From a virus, in IMG/VR virus record IMGVR_UViG_3300016457_000644, positions 1 through 21,256 of that record: DNA of 21,256 nucleotides; one strand, given 5' to 3'. The notes beneath the pieces were generated by a model. It did not search any database and was not told the DNA's origin. It saw only the letters and a program-made list of their open reading frames with translations. The position numbers and the translations under genes were made by a program. Below are positions 3,932-18,684 of the stretch, piece by piece; position 1 is the first letter of the stretch; each line of letters starts with the position of its first letter.

Positions 3932-4322
3932 TCAATGCATTGCGCCTCTTGTTCATGTGAATAAGAGCGTCTATAATTTGCATAATTACTTCGCTACTTA
4001 CTCCTTTTTTAGTTCTCAATTCATTTCTACATGCGACAATAAAAGCATGCCAATTTTTATATTTTCTCTGTTTTTTTGAAAGCGTTTGATCATCTATATA
4101 ATGCCACATTGCGTTTTTTGCAATTGTAGGAATCGATATTGAATTGGTTAATTCTGTTCTAGTTTTTTGTAGTAATTGACAAAGAATTTCTGTTTTGGAA
4201 ACACCTCTAGTTAATGCGAGGAGAGCAAGTGTTTCAACAAGTGGTAAAGGCAGATACGCACCTACAAACGTATCTGCCCCCATTGGTTTTATTGTCCTCC
4301 TATTTCTTTTAGAGAATATCAT
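3912..4322 (-). CDS. Ribbon-helix-helix DNA-binding protein
   Basis: The N-terminal segment 'TFVGAYLPLPLVETLALLA' followed by 'LTRGVSKTEILCQLLQKT' fits the ribbon-helix-helix (Arc/MetJ) pattern: one beta strand, a helix, a G-V-S/T turn and a second helix. Such proteins bind DNA as dimers and usually repress. The C-terminal ~80 residues are helical and basic and not recognised. ATG 4322 was preferred over a TTG at 4340 because it forms a TAATG junction with the SSB stop. It lies between SSB and the Cys-rich/RecA genes. An autoregulatory or early-operon repressor role is an inference; no operator was identified. Confidence 0.65.
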   Translation of the reverse strand: MIFSKRNRRTIKPMGADTFVGAYLPLPLVETLALLALTRGVSKTEILCQLLQKTRTELTNSISIPTIAKNAMWHYIDDQTLSKKQRKYKNWHAFIVACRNELRTKKGVSSEVIMQIIDALIHMNKRRNALNAANVT

Positions 4323-6137: not shown

Positions 6138-6187
6138 TAAAAAAAAAGAAAAAGTGCCAGGGTGAAACTACCCTGTCTCACCCTGGC
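6138..6187 (-). terminator. Rho-independent terminator after the tRNA locus
   Basis: On the minus strand a perfect 10-bp stem (GCCAGGGTGA at 6187-6178 with TCACCCTGGC at 6165-6156, 12-base loop) is followed by a T-rich tract (ACTTTTTC then about nine T, 6154-6139). This is the clearest intrinsic terminator in the window. It would end the transcript from promoter B through the DUF7873-like gene and the tRNA locus. The loop also contains ACAGGGT, which can pair with the same 3' arm (6 bp), so an alternative fold exists. Confidence 0.9.
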
Positions 6188-6267
6188 GATTCTTGGTTTA
6201 TTGATTATCAGTCAAGACCAAATTTGAATGATTTTATTTTTCGTTGAATATTTACCTTCAGGATAAT
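6188..6267 (-). other. Non-coding RNA flank downstream of the tRNA 5' half
   Basis: No gene is seen. Directly after the tRNA 5' half, the transcript can form a 5-bp hairpin: TTATC (6266-6262) with GGTAA (6256-6252), loop CTGAA, containing a U-G pair at T6263/G6255. This resembles the P1 helix of a group I intron, where the splice site follows such a U. Further down, TCTTG...CAAGA and TGAT/ATCA pairings are possible in an otherwise A/T-rich stretch. It would represent the 5' half of a split intron if the permuted tRNA is processed by splicing; this is unproven. Confidence 0.3.
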
Positions 6268-6361
6268 AGTCCATGCTCTACCATTGAGCTACTTGGCCAT
6301 TGGATGTGTTCTCTAAGTTTTTATGGAGGCCAAGGAGGGACTTGAACCCTCAACCTTGGAT
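6268..6361 (-). tRNA. Circularly permuted tRNA locus (3' half precedes 5' half)
   Basis: Read on the minus strand. First come ATCCA (6361-6357, positions 39-43), AGGTT variable loop, T arm GAGGG-TTCAAGT-CCCTC (6351-6335), acceptor CTTGGCC (6334-6328), T and encoded CCA (6326-6324). After 25 bases come acceptor GGCCAAG (6298-6292), TA, D arm GCTC-AATGGTA-GAGC (6289-6275), A26 and TGGAC (6273-6269, positions 27-31). The two acceptor strands pair 7/7. The anticodon stem pairs 4/5 (C31-A39 mismatch). T8-A14, A15-T48, G18G19 and T54-A58 are all in place. No complete tRNA can be made from either half with its own linear neighbours. The anticodon loop is the point of interruption, so the amino acid cannot be assigned. 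Alternative: remnants of two tandem copies of one tRNA. Confidence 0.6.
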
Positions 6362-6506
6362 TTATTTGAGTTAAATATCAATTACTTAATAACCTCACTT
6401 TATAAGTTTGGGACTTCAATATAATAAGTTTAAGCTTAATTTCTTGAACTGATCATCTGACCAACTCAAAAGGTGAGAATAAGTATAAGTTTAAGTCCTA
6501 AAACTG
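6362..6506 (-). other. Structured non-coding flank upstream of the tRNA 3' half
   Basis: There is no gene between the DUF7873-like stop and the tRNA 3' half. On the minus strand GGACTT (6498-6493) can pair with AAGTCC (6416-6411). Enclosed between them is a hairpin TTGAGTTGGT/ATCAGTTCAA (6469-6460 with 6453-6444; 10 bp including G-U pairs, loop CAGATG). A helix enclosing a hairpin in this order resembles P7 and P8 of a group I intron core. TCTCACC (6478-6472) is complementary to GGTGAGA in the terminator stem (6182-6176), a possible P3, though such a short match may be chance. No G precedes the tRNA 3' half within 17 bases, which argues against a standard group I 3' splice site. Confidence 0.3.
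6480..6497. repeat. AAGTTTAAG-type repeat, copy downstream of the DUF7873-like gene
   Basis: Plus-strand TAAGTATAAGTTTAAGT. Related units occur at 6425-6439 (TAAGTTTAAGCTTAA) and upstream of the same gene at 7275-7295 (three tandem AAGTTTAAG-like units). They flank the DUF7873-like gene in direct orientation. A low-complexity AT-rich origin cannot be excluded. Confidence 0.45.
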
Positions 6507-9925: not shown

Positions 9926-11311
9926 TCACTTAATTTCATAGTCTTCCATTTCATGCCAAGGTCGATCTACTGCGCAAAGTTCCGCATCTATTTTAAGTGG
10001 AACAATAATCCACTTCCAAGCTTCAGGAAGTTCTTTACAAGCAATATGTTGGGTGAGTTTAAAGAATTCTTTTTTTTCCTCTGGTTGAATATCTGCTACG
10101 ACTTCATCATGAATCTGACCAATTGGCACGGTATCCCATTGTTCTGTTCGGTCTGTTAATTCAATAAAAGTCCATAGTAAACAGTGGAATGCAGTACCTT
10201 GAATTGGATAATTAATAACTTGTTTTTTATTCATTATTCCACTACAACGAAATCCCGTTAGTAACTTTACATATCCCCTTTTTTCGTAATATTTCCATTG
10301 TTTCTTTTTCCATTTAGTATATGTTCTATATCGCACATTCCAAAAATCATCTTCTACATTTTTTACATGCTTAATAAATTTGTCTGAATTTTTAATATTT
10401 CCATGTTTATCTAATCGAATAAGCCCTTTATCTTGTAAGTGAATCAACGCAGGAGTGCCATCTTTTAATGTGCCAAGTTTCGCCCATTGCAATAAATTTG
10501 GCACACAATTACCATAATAATCACCATAGAATTCTGGAAAGATAAATCCATTTTTTCCGCCCTGTCGTAAATTAGCTTCTCCTGGATTATGTTTATCAAG
10601 ACTATCCAACATATAAATTTCTACAGCCATATCAAGATGCATATCGCCATGAACAGTATCATAAATTAGACGTTCATCTTGCGTATAACATCCGGCAATT
10701 CGTACTTCCATAGATGAGAAATCAGCTGAACCTAATTGATGCCCTAATCTTGGATATATTGCGGAACGTACTATCTTCTTTATTTCTTTGTCCCGTTTGG
10801 GTTGATTATGAAAATTCGGAGAATTTGAGCTGGAGCGAAAAGTTCTTACCAAATGTAATGGAAAAAATGGGTGTAACGTACCATTTACTTGTTCTCGTAA
10901 AAGCCCTTTTAAATAAGTATCTCTTGCTTTCATGTACTTCCGAACTTTTAAGAGATGCTTAATTTCTGGGAAATCGTTTGCTAAAACACTTAATACTTCA
11001 TTATCTACAGAATTATTTCCCTTGCTGGTTAACTTTGATGATTTTAATTTCATCGTTTTAAAGAGTATCTTTCTGATTTGAAGATCTGAATTTATATTGC
11101 GTTTCACGCCGTATATTTTATTCCATAACTTTCCTGTTTTTGTTTTCCAAAAACGATTATGATGTTTATCAATTATACCAGTCAGTTCTTCAATCTTTTG
11201 TTTACAATAATTGATATTTATCCGCATACCATTTTGACTGGCTTTCTGTAAAGCTAATTCACCTCTATGCATTAACATGTATGCATCTTTAGTTGTTGTT
11301 GTTATTTGCAT
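9926..11311 (-). CDS. polA: Family A DNA polymerase, polymerase domain only
   Basis: Replicative polymerase palm, fingers and thumb; 461 residues with no exonuclease domain. Visible motifs: 'RTFRSSSNSPNFHNQP' (156-171), motif A 'SADFSSMEVRIAGCY' with catalytic D197, a motif B/O-helix region 'RQGGKNGFIFPEFYG' (249-263), 'NYPIQGTA' (367-374) and motif C 'IGQIHDEVVADI' with H401 D402 E403. The O-helix sequence deviates from the usual RxxxKxxxFGxxYG (FIFPEFYG in place of FGxxYG). A segment around 280-340 between motifs B and C is longer than I expect. The matching proofreading domain appears to be encoded separately at 15005-16273. The start overlaps the preceding gene by 10 bases. Confidence 0.93.
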   Translation of the reverse strand: MQITTTTKDAYMLMHRGELALQKASQNGMRININYCKQKIEELTGIIDKHHNRFWKTKTGKLWNKIYGVKRNINSDLQIRKILFKTMKLKSSKLTSKGNNSVDNEVLSVLANDFPEIKHLLKVRKYMKARDTYLKGLLREQVNGTLHPFFPLHLVRTFRSSSNSPNFHNQPKRDKEIKKIVRSAIYPRLGHQLGSADFSSMEVRIAGCYTQDERLIYDTVHGDMHLDMAVEIYMLDSLDKHNPGEANLRQGGKNGFIFPEFYGDYYGNCVPNLLQWAKLGTLKDGTPALIHLQDKGLIRLDKHGNIKNSDKFIKHVKNVEDDFWNVRYRTYTKWKKKQWKYYEKRGYVKLLTGFRCSGIMNKKQVINYPIQGTAFHCLLWTFIELTDRTEQWDTVPIGQIHDEVVADIQPEEKKEFFKLTQHIACKELPEAWKWIIVPLKIDAELCAVDRPWHEMEDYEIK

Positions 11312-11895: not shown

Positions 11896-13494
11896 TTATT
11901 TACTCAATGGGGTAAGATCCTCAAACATATTTGGGATAATATCCATTAATGTGTCCCATATAGTAAACGCAATGGGTCTAATTTGAGGATGGGCTTCCTT
12001 TGATCCACGCAATTTAATAAAATGTCTCCACTCTCTTAAATTCGCCGTCATTACAATTTCTGTTTTAAGACAATTTGGTAGAACTGATCTAGCAATTTGT
12101 GGAGAACAACCTTTGTCTAAAAGGCTAAAGTAGGCATCTTCTGCATTTACACAAGCAATTCTCCATTCAACCGTTTGTTCATACGTCAAATTTGGAGGTT
12201 GAATAAAAGTACATTCGTTCCCGAACTTGTCTTTGCTATAATTACACCATCGTGTGCTATTATGCACAATAAATCCGTTTGCAACATAGTTATGATGTGG
12301 TGCCTTCATTTCTAAATCATAAACAGGTTCCTTTCCAACTGCTGTTATTTTCGTGATTGTGTCAGGATGTGCCTTTTTCCCGATATACCATCCTCTATGT
12401 ATCTTTTTATGACAATTTATACAGAGTTTGAGCAAATTTTCTTTTTGGTTATTTTTATCATTTCCGTCTATATGACGCACTTCCAGCTTCTCAATACAAC
12501 CACATAGTTCACAATGGGCCACTTCTTCTTTTTTGCGTAAGGCAATTCTGCGGGAAACCCCACCTTTCCAGTTACTGTTTTTATCTCCGTATAAATTATT
12601 ATGGTGATTTCTTCGCAAAGAATCTGCTTGTGATCTGACAGAAGGATTCTCCTCTTCTTTTATTCCTTTATTCCATACTACTCTACCATTATTGTATTGT
12701 TCCAAAATAGTTTGCCTCATCTTTTCTATAGAGAAGGCAGTATGGTTTTTCGTGTATTTCTCTTTGTTTTTATCATTCATACGTTTTACGAATATTCCTA
12801 ATGCTTTTAGTCTTCTTAAAACTGAAGAATAAGGGGCACTAAATGTACTCGCAATTTCTTGCGGGCTTTGTTTCTGCTGTAGATATAAATGTTTTAATTC
12901 ATCATCAGGTATTTTTAATAGACAAGGACGTCCATTCACCATAATAGAATCACCAATACTTAGTTTGTTTAATGAAATAAAAGACCCGTTTGGTAATTGA
13001 AATTCATGGTTTGCGGTTGCTTTAATCCTATACCCAAGTGACGCGTGCACTTCATAAACAGGGGCAATTCCTTTGTAAAAGACAGATTGAATTTTGTTCC
13101 TTATAATATTTCCCCTTTCATCACAGCTTCTCAAGCTAATTGTTTTATTATGCGTTTTTCCTTGGGGAGAAAAAGATCTATCAAACAATTGTTTGATAGT
13201 TTTATCTTTTCGCACTAATGTGTCTCCCGAAACACATTCCTGGGCGAAAGATGCAATCCTATGTCTTACAATTTCGTGAGTTATCCCACGGTCTGTTATT
13301 ATTCGGAAAGAAGCACACGCATGCTCTAACATTGCATGATGCCCTGCTTTTCTCAATGCTTTAACAAACTTTCCTGCTGAGTCTTCCGTTATTTTGTCTT
13401 CAGATTTGTAACAAACTCTACCTGCCTTTTCTATTTGAATTTCGGGATCAATAGTACACCATAATAATTCTACACTTGGTTTTACGATTTTCAT
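11896..13494 (-). CDS. thyX: FAD-dependent thymidylate synthase ThyX, interrupted by an intein
   Basis: Makes dTMP from dUMP using FAD and methylenetetrahydrofolate. The host part is 206 residues (1-86 and 413-532), normal for ThyX. The ThyX motif is RHRIASFAQE before the intein and STRWCNY after it; joined, it gives RHRxxSxxQExxR. The intein therefore sits inside the substrate-binding motif and must be removed for activity. Residues 'HAMLEHACASFRII' and 'LREWRHFIKLRGSKEAHPQI' are also typical. AAGGAG precedes ATG 13494. It is the last gene of the block started by promoter D and is followed by a stem-loop. Confidence 0.96.
   Translation of the reverse strand: MKIVKPSVELLWCTIDPEIQIEKAGRVCYKSEDKITEDSAGKFVKALRKAGHHAMLEHACASFRIITDRGITHEIVRHRIASFAQECVSGDTLVRKDKTIKQLFDRSFSPQGKTHNKTISLRSCDERGNIIRNKIQSVFYKGIAPVYEVHASLGYRIKATANHEFQLPNGSFISLNKLSIGDSIMVNGRPCLLKIPDDELKHLYLQQKQSPQEIASTFSAPYSSVLRRLKALGIFVKRMNDKNKEKYTKNHTAFSIEKMRQTILEQYNNGRVVWNKGIKEEENPSVRSQADSLRRNHHNNLYGDKNSNWKGGVSRRIALRKKEEVAHCELCGCIEKLEVRHIDGNDKNNQKENLLKLCINCHKKIHRGWYIGKKAHPDTITKITAVGKEPVYDLEMKAPHHNYVANGFIVHNSTRWCNYSKDKFGNECTFIQPPNLTYEQTVEWRIACVNAEDAYFSLLDKGCSPQIARSVLPNCLKTEIVMTANLREWRHFIKLRGSKEAHPQIRPIAFTIWDTLMDIIPNMFEDLTPLSK
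12259..13236 (-). mobile_element. ThyX intein with HNH homing endonuclease
   Basis: A 326-residue intein encoded in frame: first residue C (CVSGDTLVRK, block A), block B-like 'IKATANHEFQLPN' (71-83), and C-terminal 'VYDLEMKAPHHNYVANGFIV' ending in HN followed by host Ser. Inserted within it are a helix-turn-helix-like region (112-145, 'QSPQEIASTFSAPYSSVLRR'), a NUMOD-like 'GDKNSNWKGG' and an HNH nuclease: CELC, RHIDGNDKNNQKENL, CINCHKKIH (242-280). All splicing residues look intact, so self-excision and homing are both plausible. Confidence 0.93.
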
Positions 13495-14980: not shown

Positions 14981-15018
14981 TTATTATATTATACAAAATT
15001 CCACTTAAAAATTTAAAG
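14981..15018 (-). promoter_or_regulatory. Promoter D (copy 4 of 4)
   Basis: TTAAAT (15016-15011), 17-base spacer, TATAAT (14993-14988), followed by ATAATAAATAG. The -35 box lies within the last codons of the glycosylase-exonuclease gene (stop 15007-15005). It starts the block 14959 to thyX. Confidence 0.8.
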
Positions 15019-16273
15019 TTTCTGCATACGAATTAAATCCCATCTGTTCCATTTGTAAAAGTGCTAATTTATATTGCCACAATGTATCATATCCACAGTA
15101 AGTAAGCACCTCGTCCTCCCCGTATTTTTTAATAAACTCAAAAATTCTATTCACTGCATTTGCATTATTTTTTTCTACACCTTCTAAATATGGGGCAATG
15201 TGAGAATCGTAATCGCAAACCCCAAAATTCACATACGTTTGAAACTTCAATCCAGTAATTCCAGGACGATTATCAAGTATATGTGCAGCCTGCAAAGAAT
15301 CCCACTTCCAATTTTTTATGATTGTTCTTAGTCGAACTTCTGCCCAAATATGTTCAAAAACCATATTATGCGCCATTTTACCAATGTGTGGGGCAATAAA
15401 TAATTTTCGTATTTTATCTTTTACTTCCCTACTTTTTGGCAGCATAAACACATTACAATGATTTGGCGATGGGGCAATTGACATACAAACTAATCTATGC
15501 CCAATTGCGTGTGGCTTCAGTCCAGTCGTCTCGAAATCGATTGAAAGTAAATCTGTTGTTCTTCGTGTAAAATTTAATATATGGGATAACTCTTTTTCGT
15601 CTTTTATTATATTGATCTGACTCTTTTTATTTTCTGGAAATGGGGCATCTAAACAATCCAACGCCCTCTTTAAGTCCTGTAAATATATTGTAATAATTGC
15701 TGGCATCTTTTCCGCCATTCGATTTACATAGGACGGGTGAAGTGCAGGACAAAGCCATGTTTTAAAGTCTTGATCTGGAATTGTCCAGCCTCTCCATTTT
15801 GTTATTCCCCCAAGATTCTTTTTCCAGCGGTGTCCAATAACAGACTTTACTGCCTCTCCACCTGCTAGAATAATCAATTTTGGTTTATATTGTTCAATCG
15901 CTTTTAGTACTCGTTTTCTACAACAAGCAATTTCGTAGTCCGTTGGTTTTCTATTTGTACCATCTTCATCCACTGGACGACAATTCGTTGCATTCAAACT
16001 GACGCAATCTCTGAATAAATCAATTCCCAATGAAGCGAGTGAATCTTGCTTTCTTTTTCCTGCTTTCCCTTGCCAGGGCTTTCCTTTTCGATCTTCTTCT
16101 TCTCCGGGTGATTGGCCTATTATCATTATTCCCTTTTCGAATTTACCATAAGGTTTGATTTTCGGATGCAATAAATTTCGATAAAGTCCGCAAGAAGCAC
16201 AAGACAATGGTTTTCCCGTCTTGTTTCCAGATGTGTCCTTAAATTTAGCTGCGTTAAAAAAGGTCTGAATCAT
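15005..16273 (-). CDS. Uracil-DNA glycosylase (family 4) fused to a DnaQ-like 3'-5' exonuclease
   Basis: Residues 1-210 are a family 4-type glycosylase that removes uracil from DNA: motif A 'GQSPGEEEDRKGKPWQGKAG' (53-72), HPS (179-181), and Cys 25, 28, 98 and 117/118 placed as [4Fe-4S] ligands. Residues 220-422 match the Pol I-type proofreading exonuclease: Exo I 'LSIDFETTGL' (D246, E248), Exo II 'AHNMVFEHIW' with E307 where Asp is usual, and Exo III 'YCGYDTLW' (Y392, D396). The polymerase lacking this domain is encoded at 9926-11311, so the two probably form one split polymerase. ATG 16273 overlaps the upstream stop (ATGA). Promoter D lies in its 3' end. Confidence 0.93.
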   Translation of the reverse strand: MIQTFFNAAKFKDTSGNKTGKPLSCASCGLYRNLLHPKIKPYGKFEKGIMIIGQSPGEEEDRKGKPWQGKAGKRKQDSLASLGIDLFRDCVSLNATNCRPVDEDGTNRKPTDYEIACCRKRVLKAIEQYKPKLIILAGGEAVKSVIGHRWKKNLGGITKWRGWTIPDQDFKTWLCPALHPSYVNRMAEKMPAIITIYLQDLKRALDCLDAPFPENKKSQINIIKDEKELSHILNFTRRTTDLLSIDFETTGLKPHAIGHRLVCMSIAPSPNHCNVFMLPKSREVKDKIRKLFIAPHIGKMAHNMVFEHIWAEVRLRTIIKNWKWDSLQAAHILDNRPGITGLKFQTYVNFGVCDYDSHIAPYLEGVEKNNANAVNRIFEFIKKYGEDEVLTYCGYDTLWQYKLALLQMEQMGFNSYAETLNF

Positions 16274-16599: not shown

Positions 16600-18684
16600 T
16601 TATATATTCAATTTTCTTTGTTCTTGTTTTTCAGCTTGTTTAAGATTTCGCACCATTATTCGATAATACGCTTTTTTTAATTCTATCCCAATAAATTTAC
16701 GTTTCCTTCGGATTGTTTCATACCCCTCAGATCCAATACCACCGAATGGGGATAAAACAATATCTCCAGGATTTGTCCACAGTTCAAGACAACGTGCAAT
16801 TACATCTAATTGTAAAGGACAATTTTTAACAATCGCCCCTTCTGCTGTAAAAGATTCATCTTCATCGACACTAATATCCCAAACTTCTGATTTCCCTTTT
16901 TCTTCAATCTTTCTCACCTTTTTCCAGGCGCCATCTTCCCCAATCCAACCAGATTGTCGATATCCTTTTGAATTGCGAAATGCGAAAACCCAATCTTGAG
17001 AGGTATTAACGATGCGGCCTTGAATTACACACTTTCCTTCAGGTCTTCCAGCATAAACACTTGCAACAAATCCTCTTGCCCTTTGAACTATCAACTCCAT
17101 TCCAAGAAGAAGGGCGCGCGAGATCGACGAAGCAGTCCAACGATCACATTTTTTTACATAGTGCCCATCAGCAGAAAGATAACCAGACAAAAGAGATTCT
17201 GCCCCTTCTTGTGACAATGTAACAGCTTCTCCTGGAAGTTTCTTATTTGCAGCACCATTTCCACAACGATTGAGAACGTCTCTAACATCATGTCTAAGTT
17301 CCTTGAGCGCTATTTGACATGCAGTGTGTTTAGCTACATAACCAGCATGCTTTCCAAGACGTTTGATTAACGATTCAACCTCATCATAAGAGCAAGATAT
17401 AAAAAATTGCCCCATTCCTCCTCGCTTCCCACTGCGGTGATGGCCTCCTCTATGTCCATCTCCAAGCCAACGTCCAACAATCCACCATTCATCAGATGTT
17501 AGAAGAGAATTTTCTATCGGTGGCAATTTCAAATTTAGATAACCGCCTTTTGTATTGCGTGCTGGAACCCACATAGGATCATTTTTCATTGCAGAAGATT
17601 TTTCTTTAAATGCACTCCCTTTCATTCCTGGCCATCGACCTTTTCCTATAGGGCTACGAAACCAAAACTCATGTTCAGGTGTAACCCGCAAATCAGCAAC
17701 ACCATGAGCACATATTAAAATAATAGGTTTTATTCCATTGCATTTTTTCCCTGTAACAGCTCTCCATCTGCCTTTATGCGTTAATACAAAATCTCCAATT
17801 TCAATATTTTCAATTGGAACATATCCCTTTTGCCTTGTGAGAACTAACGCCCCAGAAGCCAAACATATATGTCTCTCATCATCCTTTTCACGGGCCTGTT
17901 TAATATTTAATGTATTTCCTTGACGAATATCCATCCATACAGGGGAAGCGTATCGTTGCCATACATGATGACTATATTTATTTTTTGCTGGATTATCATT
18001 TTTCGGGTTTGATGGTTCCTCTCTTTCCCCTATGTATTCTTCAAATCCACGTCCATGCGGAATTGGTTCTGGATTGTTTCCTGGTTTTACTACCGAAATA
18101 ATATAATCTGCCCCTCCTGCGCCACATCTTGTTGAATCTTTGCTGATTTGTTTATGGGCAAGTCTTAATGCTTTTGTTCTGACTGCTTCAAGCAAGGGAT
18201 CTTTCCAAATAGTAATTCTTGGCGAATGATAAATAAATCCCACTGCCTCAAACTTTCGAAGTAATTTTCCGGGGAAATCTTTTGCCCCCATATATCCGTC
18301 CCGTTCTTTCATAGCGGGAATATCAGAACAATGAAAACTCAGCACCCTTCCTGGTAATAGTACTCTATATAATTCTGGGATGAGAAATTCAAAATGATCA
18401 TAGAACTCTTCATCTGTCGAATTCCCCATATCATGTGCAGATGCTGAATATGTAAAAAGAGAACTAAAAGGAGGGGAAAAGATCGAGTAATGAATTGAAT
18501 TAGATGGAATCCCTTTCAAAACTTCAACGCAATCCCCATGATAAGCGCTCCATTTATCCGTAATTACTTGATGAATAACTCTTGGGAGAAACCTATCCTT
18601 TTTTGATTTCTCGCTATATAATTTTGCTTTTGCTTCTTTTAGTCTTTGTTGATAGAATTCAATTTCGTTTATTATCTGATCCAT
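16600..18684 (-). CDS. DNA (N4-cytosine/N6-adenine) methyltransferase interrupted by an intein
   Basis: The host protein is 346 residues (1-273 and 622-694). Motif IV is 'SIFSPPFSSLF' (SPPF 70-73); motif I is 'LSPFGGIGSEGYE' near the C-terminus (FGGIG 647-651), so the domain order is that of beta-class N4/N6 methylases. The junction, once spliced, reads DERHI-CPLQLDVI, the conserved segment before motif I. The methylated site cannot be predicted. It would protect phage DNA or mark it for regulation; no restriction nuclease is seen. GGAG lies 8 bases before ATG 18684, within the last codons of the helicase, which it overlaps by 13 bases. Confidence 0.93.
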   Translation of the reverse strand: MDQIINEIEFYQQRLKEAKAKLYSEKSKKDRFLPRVIHQVITDKWSAYHGDCVEVLKGIPSNSIHYSIFSPPFSSLFTYSASAHDMGNSTDEEFYDHFEFLIPELYRVLLPGRVLSFHCSDIPAMKERDGYMGAKDFPGKLLRKFEAVGFIYHSPRITIWKDPLLEAVRTKALRLAHKQISKDSTRCGAGGADYIISVVKPGNNPEPIPHGRGFEEYIGEREEPSNPKNDNPAKNKYSHHVWQRYASPVWMDIRQGNTLNIKQAREKDDERHICLASGALVLTRQKGYVPIENIEIGDFVLTHKGRWRAVTGKKCNGIKPIILICAHGVADLRVTPEHEFWFRSPIGKGRWPGMKGSAFKEKSSAMKNDPMWVPARNTKGGYLNLKLPPIENSLLTSDEWWIVGRWLGDGHRGGHHRSGKRGGMGQFFISCSYDEVESLIKRLGKHAGYVAKHTACQIALKELRHDVRDVLNRCGNGAANKKLPGEAVTLSQEGAESLLSGYLSADGHYVKKCDRWTASSISRALLLGMELIVQRARGFVASVYAGRPEGKCVIQGRIVNTSQDWVFAFRNSKGYRQSGWIGEDGAWKKVRKIEEKGKSEVWDISVDEDESFTAEGAIVKNCPLQLDVIARCLELWTNPGDIVLSPFGGIGSEGYETIRRKRKFIGIELKKAYYRIMVRNLKQAEKQEQRKLNI
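16822..17865 (-). mobile_element. Methyltransferase intein with LAGLIDADG endonuclease
   Basis: A 348-residue intein starts CLASGALVLTRQKGYVPIEN, with block B 'VTPEHEFWF' (61-69). Two dodecapeptide motifs of a LAGLIDADG enzyme follow: 'WWIVGRWLGDGHRGG' (127-141) and 'LLSGYLSADGHYV' (225-237). The end is 'EVWDISVDEDESFTAEGAIV' then K-N before host Cys. The usual penultimate His is Lys, a known type of natural variant that can still splice but may be slower. Confidence 0.92.

Follow-up and report, generated by a model that had tools for sequence, protein, structure and literature searches.

In permuted two-piece tmRNA (beta_tmRNA, RF01850, and its alphaproteobacterial kin), an acceptor piece with the T arm and CCA comes first, an intervening segment follows and the 5' piece comes last; the spacer is removed and a CCA end is left. 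Circularly permuted tRNA genes are known from algae and Thermofilum, with no phage case in a review of the subject (Soma 2014, PMC3978253). They likewise place the 3' half first with an intervening segment between the acceptor ends, and the archaeal ones encode CCA. YrlA, a bacterial Y RNA, mimics a tRNA: it has D, T and acceptor arms together with a Ro-binding stem at its base. Its ends lie at the would-be anticodon loop, where a long stem serves as the Ro60 binding site in bacteria (PMC8394870), and this position of the ends puts the tRNA-like arms of YrlA in permuted order. YrlA has been reported in phages (PMC7765460) and in one prophage (PMC8190616). GOLLD and ROOL are phage RNAs of large size that contain tRNAs or lie near them (PMC12286853).

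The window, the whole stretch analyzed here, comprises positions 1 to 21,256 of the IMG/VR virus record IMGVR_UViG_3300016457_000644. On its minus strand, at 6361-6268, the 3' half of a tRNA precedes the 5' half, and direct reading of the sequence agrees with the initial annotation on this order as well as on an acceptor stem paired 7/7, an anticodon stem paired 4/5 and a Levitt pair A15-T48. Read on this strand, the module begins with the 3' strand of the anticodon stem (ATCCA, A39-A43, 6361-6357) and the variable loop (AGGTT, nt 44-48, 6356-6352, with nt 48 at T6352), both of which are also supported by covariation in relatives. The T arm (GAGGG-TTCAAGT-CCCTC, 6351-6335) has a fully paired stem (5/5), as it does in 45 of 46 relatives, and is followed by the acceptor 3' strand (CTTGGCC, 6334-6328), the discriminator N73 (T6327) and an encoded CCA (6326-6324). 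A 25-nt intervening segment (6299-6323), which in relatives varies freely in length and sequence, separates CCA from G1. The acceptor 5' strand (GGCCAAG, 6298-6292), whose pairing recurs in relatives, is joined through T8 and A9 to a D arm with a 4/4 stem (GCTC-AATGGTA-GAGC, 6289-6275), which carries G18G19 and, at 6284, the A15 that covaries with position 48. A26 (6274) and the 5' strand of the anticodon stem (TGGAC, nt 27-31, 6273-6269) complete the module. Standard annotation misses it, since ARAGORN predicts no tRNA anywhere in the window and the normal-order Rfam tRNA match from the module's D arm scores 24.7 bits, below the threshold of 29.

The module lies directly 3' of a gene encoding a 251-aa DUF7873 protein (PF25283; 6507-7262, minus strand; Pfam 248 bits, E 1.3e-73). 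Elsewhere in the window, a ThyX thymidylate synthase gene is interrupted by an intein with an HNH endonuclease (11896-13494), a DNA methyltransferase gene is interrupted by an intein-like region (16600-18684), and DNA polymerase is split between two genes with some 3.7 kb between them (9926-11311 and 15005-16273), which match consecutive parts of phrog_17 (positions 834-1237 and 478-827).

The first two DUF7873 relatives each have an adjoining permuted module with an acceptor sequence different from that of the window. We assembled 56 distinct DUF7873 loci, mostly of phages, from IMG/VR, GenBank phages and, in one case, a genome bin; the isolates among them include Rhizobium, Klebsiella, Gordonia and Vibrio phages. 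A search for the same half order, as the initial annotation had proposed, found a same-strand module no more than 1.1 kb downstream in 52 of the 56 loci, at a median of 175 nt after the DUF7873 gene. Among the remaining four are L184, with its module upstream, and L185 and L191, where it lies somewhat farther off; in L216, the T arm and its matching D arm are 230 nt apart. The downstream stretch has 1.12 modules per kb, the rest of the same strand has 0.034 per kb, and the opposite strand of the DUF7873 loci contains a single module in 354 kb. In many loci there is a further permuted module, whose D arm is mostly Leu-like (L163, L164, L202, L206, L213, L215, L217, L224 and L191), and L188 has a phage-encoded tmRNA gene (2158-2527) about 1.4 kb from its permuted module. 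The module is thus a conserved companion of DUF7873, and the expectation that a phage case would be unusual does not hold. Modules are also present in some viral contigs that have no detected DUF7873 gene (L055, L112, L096, L150 and L144), where the split points differ, with the anticodon arm beside the T arm in some of the first four and after the D arm in L144. When the RNA was searched against phages at the nucleotide level, only ordinary tRNA-half matches came up, and annotation at the module regions of the phage records read is blank.

Phage tRNA arrays are common and their junctions give this half order, so that the module might be what a deletion of the outer halves of two tandem tRNA genes has left behind. 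As a control, 100 pairs of canonical tRNAs in tandem were taken from viral contigs; the acceptor strands at their junctions were never complementary at 7/7 Watson-Crick positions and only once at 6/7. In the 46 B modules compared, by contrast, the acceptor pairs 7/7 in every case and each position shows all four Watson-Crick pair types, so that pairing persists between acceptors of completely different sequence, whereas acceptor halves re-paired between members give about one full match. Because acceptor pairing of at least 6/7 was itself a criterion of the module search, the argument for a single fold rests on features outside the search. Of 61 modules, 30 have G-C as the Levitt pair 15-48, 30 have A-U and one has G-U (Fisher p 1e-16, a value that overstates the number of events, since related sequences are not independent). 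The anticodon stem has at least 4/5 pairs in 39 of 46 relatives and 5/5 in 20 of 46, levels that halves swapped between members reach in 37% and 5%. Such compensatory changes in acceptor and Levitt pairs across dozens of phages imply selection on the joined fold and refute the tandem relic, which we regard as scarcely credible. The same module search in 400 first-order Markov versions of the window, on both strands, returned none; chance is rejected by these versions, by the tandem control and by covariation. Covariation and the tandem control together indicate that the halves fold together as one tRNA core kept by selection. Moreover, the recurrence of the same RNA next to the same protein gene in more than 50 phages argues for a real and widespread RNA and not a broken tRNA.

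A single tRNA fold with reversed halves in a phage is therefore the part of the permuted tRNA reading that stands; a permuted tRNA gene in the algal or archaeal sense is not. Although the module shares the half order, the intervening segment and the encoded CCA with such genes, no anticodon loop is apparent when its halves are joined, no anticodon is visible at their junction, and the anticodon stem instead extends as part of a longer helix. The strict 3-4-3 bulge-helix-bulge is absent from the window and present in one of 45 relatives, compared to 0.6 in the control, and the best family match is to YrlA and not to tRNA. The permuted tRNA reading is right about the fold and putative as to function.

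Maturation of the module could nonetheless involve removal of the segment between CCA and G1. If RNase P and 3' trimming excised it, the product would be a two-piece, CCA-ended, chargeable RNA, or the halves could be joined into a true tRNA. N-CCA is found in 32 of the 46 B modules and C at +2 in 44, despite diverged acceptors and spacers, and the bases before G1 include a purine at -2 in 44 of 46 and T at -1 in 23 of 46. A comparison set of 1014 canonical phage tRNAs has similar values (T at -1 in 59%, A at -2 in 56% and CCA in 54%), so that spacer removal leaving a CCA end is possible. A pure Y RNA-like mimic would have no need of an encoded CCA and a tRNA-like leader, features that point to a free acceptor end. 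The Levitt pair spanning both halves and weak matches to permuted beta_tmRNA in two relatives agree with such a two-piece or circular tRNA. However, besides the lack of a visible anticodon and of a strict bulge-helix-bulge, the discriminator varies (T in 18, G in 17, A in 7 and C in 4), which argues against a single amino-acid identity. In L184, L205 and L210, a spacer hairpin takes the place of CCA, and such a hairpin, predicted in several relatives, would bury or replace the CCA. Nor does the locus fit tmRNA, whose permuted two-piece form it resembles in the order of its pieces: ARAGORN and Rfam find no tmRNA in the window, tmRNA model matches in relatives are weak and partial, the D arm here is canonical and has a stem, and the frames after it show no evident tag. 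We therefore consider a chargeable two-piece or joined tRNA rather unlikely.

The best Rfam match of the window is YrlA (RF02553), which aligns over its full length (1-114) with 43.4 bits and an E value of 8.5e-7, and a YrlA match at E<=0.01 was found in the records of 18 of 20 relatives, mostly at the module. The module has the same permuted order of T arm, acceptor and D arm as YrlA, and its domain is likewise closed by a helix of the RNA ends. This raises the question of whether the RNA is a true YrlA Y RNA that binds a host- or phage-encoded Ro60 and tethers it to PNPase, a reading that gains from the presence of TROVE, the Ro60 domain, in the related Rhizobium phage Y65. Nevertheless, neither the window nor any of 20 related records reaches the YrlA gathering score of 69 bits. 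The Ro60-binding motif of YrlA (AUGC / AcUuG in the model) is mismatched in the window alignment, and its ACUUG part occurs in only one of 45 3' flanks. TROVE is absent from the phage contigs of the window, whose record is incomplete, from five other viral contigs and from five of six cultured DUF7873 phages, Y65 being the exception, with the domain several kb away. YrlA goes with Ro60, whereas the linkage here is to DUF7873. Furthermore, in the YrlA model a short loop joins the acceptor halves, while here the spacer is variable, often long, and in most cases preceded by an encoded CCA; an anticodon-arm or tRNA element and a CAGGNUAG hairpin are additional to the YrlA design. The window RNA thus resembles YrlA in shape and fails as a member of the family, and the Ro60-binding reading appears quite improbable.

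Besides its DUF7873 RNA, phage Y65 has at another site a series of permuted modules that lies immediately upstream of a TROVE/Ro60 gene, so that the permuted design occurs with either protein. This array is an unannotated 1.2-kb stretch (L231 490-1690; RHph_Y65, MN988525, 138389-139589) in which at least four modules were recognized by eye, with a copy of a repeated GTTGCGA...CTTCG element before each of them. Vibrio phage pir03, for which its authors reported TROVE, gave no match to PF05731 and no YrlA, and therefore provided no positive control. Deinobacterium chartae was the only control genome that matched both TROVE and DUF7873.

Beyond the module, an outer helix is predicted between UUGAUAUUUA (6372-6381, minus strand) and UAAAUAUUCAA (6244-6254, minus strand) in both MFE and centroid folds of the window; it is weak when a longer stretch is folded. 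In relatives, flank pairing has a mean of -27.6 kcal/mol, and in 28 of 45 it is clearly better than that of re-paired flanks. An unbiased k-mer search found no universal motif in the flanks, the 3' flanks of 12 of 45 containing UUAAAYG. Downstream lies an anticodon-arm-like hairpin (6193-6222, minus strand; stem UUGA/UCAA), present in the centroid fold, with a 7-nt loop (CUGAUAA, 6211-6205) containing U33 and a GAU triplet. Many loci have at this place either a normal-order tRNA without CCA (L160, L169, L174, L180 and L208) or a bare anticodon arm (L177 and L227), and the anticodons of these downstream elements vary. In L179, a normal-order tRNA at about 4160-4232 has the anticodon UUA and would read the stop codon UAA.

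The RNA appears to end at a 3' hairpin followed by a T run (6156-6187, minus strand) with the loop CAGGGUAG, in relatives CAGGNUAG. A CAGGNUAG-loop hairpin, often with T's after it, closes many DUF7873 loci, and it recurs together with the anticodon-arm element, for example in L227, L177, L160 and L169. The suggestion that the locus is bounded by a promoter and a terminator has support on the terminator side only: the hairpin at 6187-6156 has 13 pairs and is terminator-like, but one promoter site was found where 2.0 are expected by chance. Taken alone, the window RNA is only moderately more stable than shuffled sequences (z -1.25 for 6240-6385 and -3.5 for 6150-6385). No other Rfam family matched the remainder of the RNA, at gathering scores for 20 relatives and at E<=0.01 for 10. 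A permuted intron or known ribozyme was rejected for want of any Rfam intron or ribozyme match, and GOLLD and ROOL were rejected in the window and in the same sets of relatives. The locus shares with these two large RNAs a position near, or the content of, tRNAs; unlike in them, the tRNA domain here is itself permuted and integral.

The AlphaFold2 model of DUF7873 (pLDDT 91.5) consists of helices and a long beta hairpin. Foldseek searches of PDB and BFVD returned nothing at E<=0.001 and no recognizable RNA-binding fold, and TROVE was absent among the Foldseek and VIA-align matches. One BFVD match, the crAss-like phage protein A0A7M1RW91, has a probability of 1.00 but an rmsd of 11.7. RNA binding by DUF7873 is suggested by its linkage to the RNA, of which it is probably the protein partner.

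Overall, the explanation we favor on balance is a YrlA-like phage tRNA-mimic RNA that probably has DUF7873 as its partner and may act as a decoy or hijack host machinery. The best reading of the structure is a new YrlA-like class of phage RNA, with an additional anticodon-arm hairpin as well as a conserved 3' hairpin. The RNA would be a structured non-coding molecule of about 230 nt, from about 6385 to 6156 on the minus strand, with the module as its tRNA-like domain, and we infer that it is transcribed with or just after the DUF7873 mRNA. Its own 5' and 3' ends would lie at the would-be anticodon loop, which would explain why the domain is circularly permuted, while its T arm, acceptor and D arm make up a canonical tRNA core. 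As in bacterial YrlA, the anticodon stem would extend into a helix closed by the RNA flanks; the separate anticodon-arm hairpin, a whole tRNA in some relatives, and then the conserved 3' hairpin would follow. DUF7873 may hold the RNA by its internal loops or flanking helices, much as Ro60 holds a Y RNA, and the tRNA-like parts may engage host tRNA-binding machinery, such as a nuclease, a modification enzyme, PNPase or the ribosome. One conceivable role is that of a decoy against tRNA-cutting defenses. More tentatively, a fuller version seems possible, in which tailed phages make a ribonucleoprotein of DUF7873 and an RNA that combines one or two permuted tRNA cores with an anticodon arm of the decoding type and a signature 3' hairpin. 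This RNA would mature to a two-piece CCA-ended mimic and intercept host tRNA-directed defenses or the translation machinery.

We found no description of the RNA-DUF7873 pair in the open literature searched, which leaves out most subscription journals, and this phage RNA is apparently both widespread and so far undescribed. Since the module accompanies DUF7873 across very different hosts, and several of the phages are cultured, the proposal is directly testable. If true, tRNA-mimicking Y RNA-like molecules would extend beyond Ro60, DUF7873 would gain a function as a so far unassigned phage protein family, and an RNA player would be added to the contest between phages and bacteria over tRNA.
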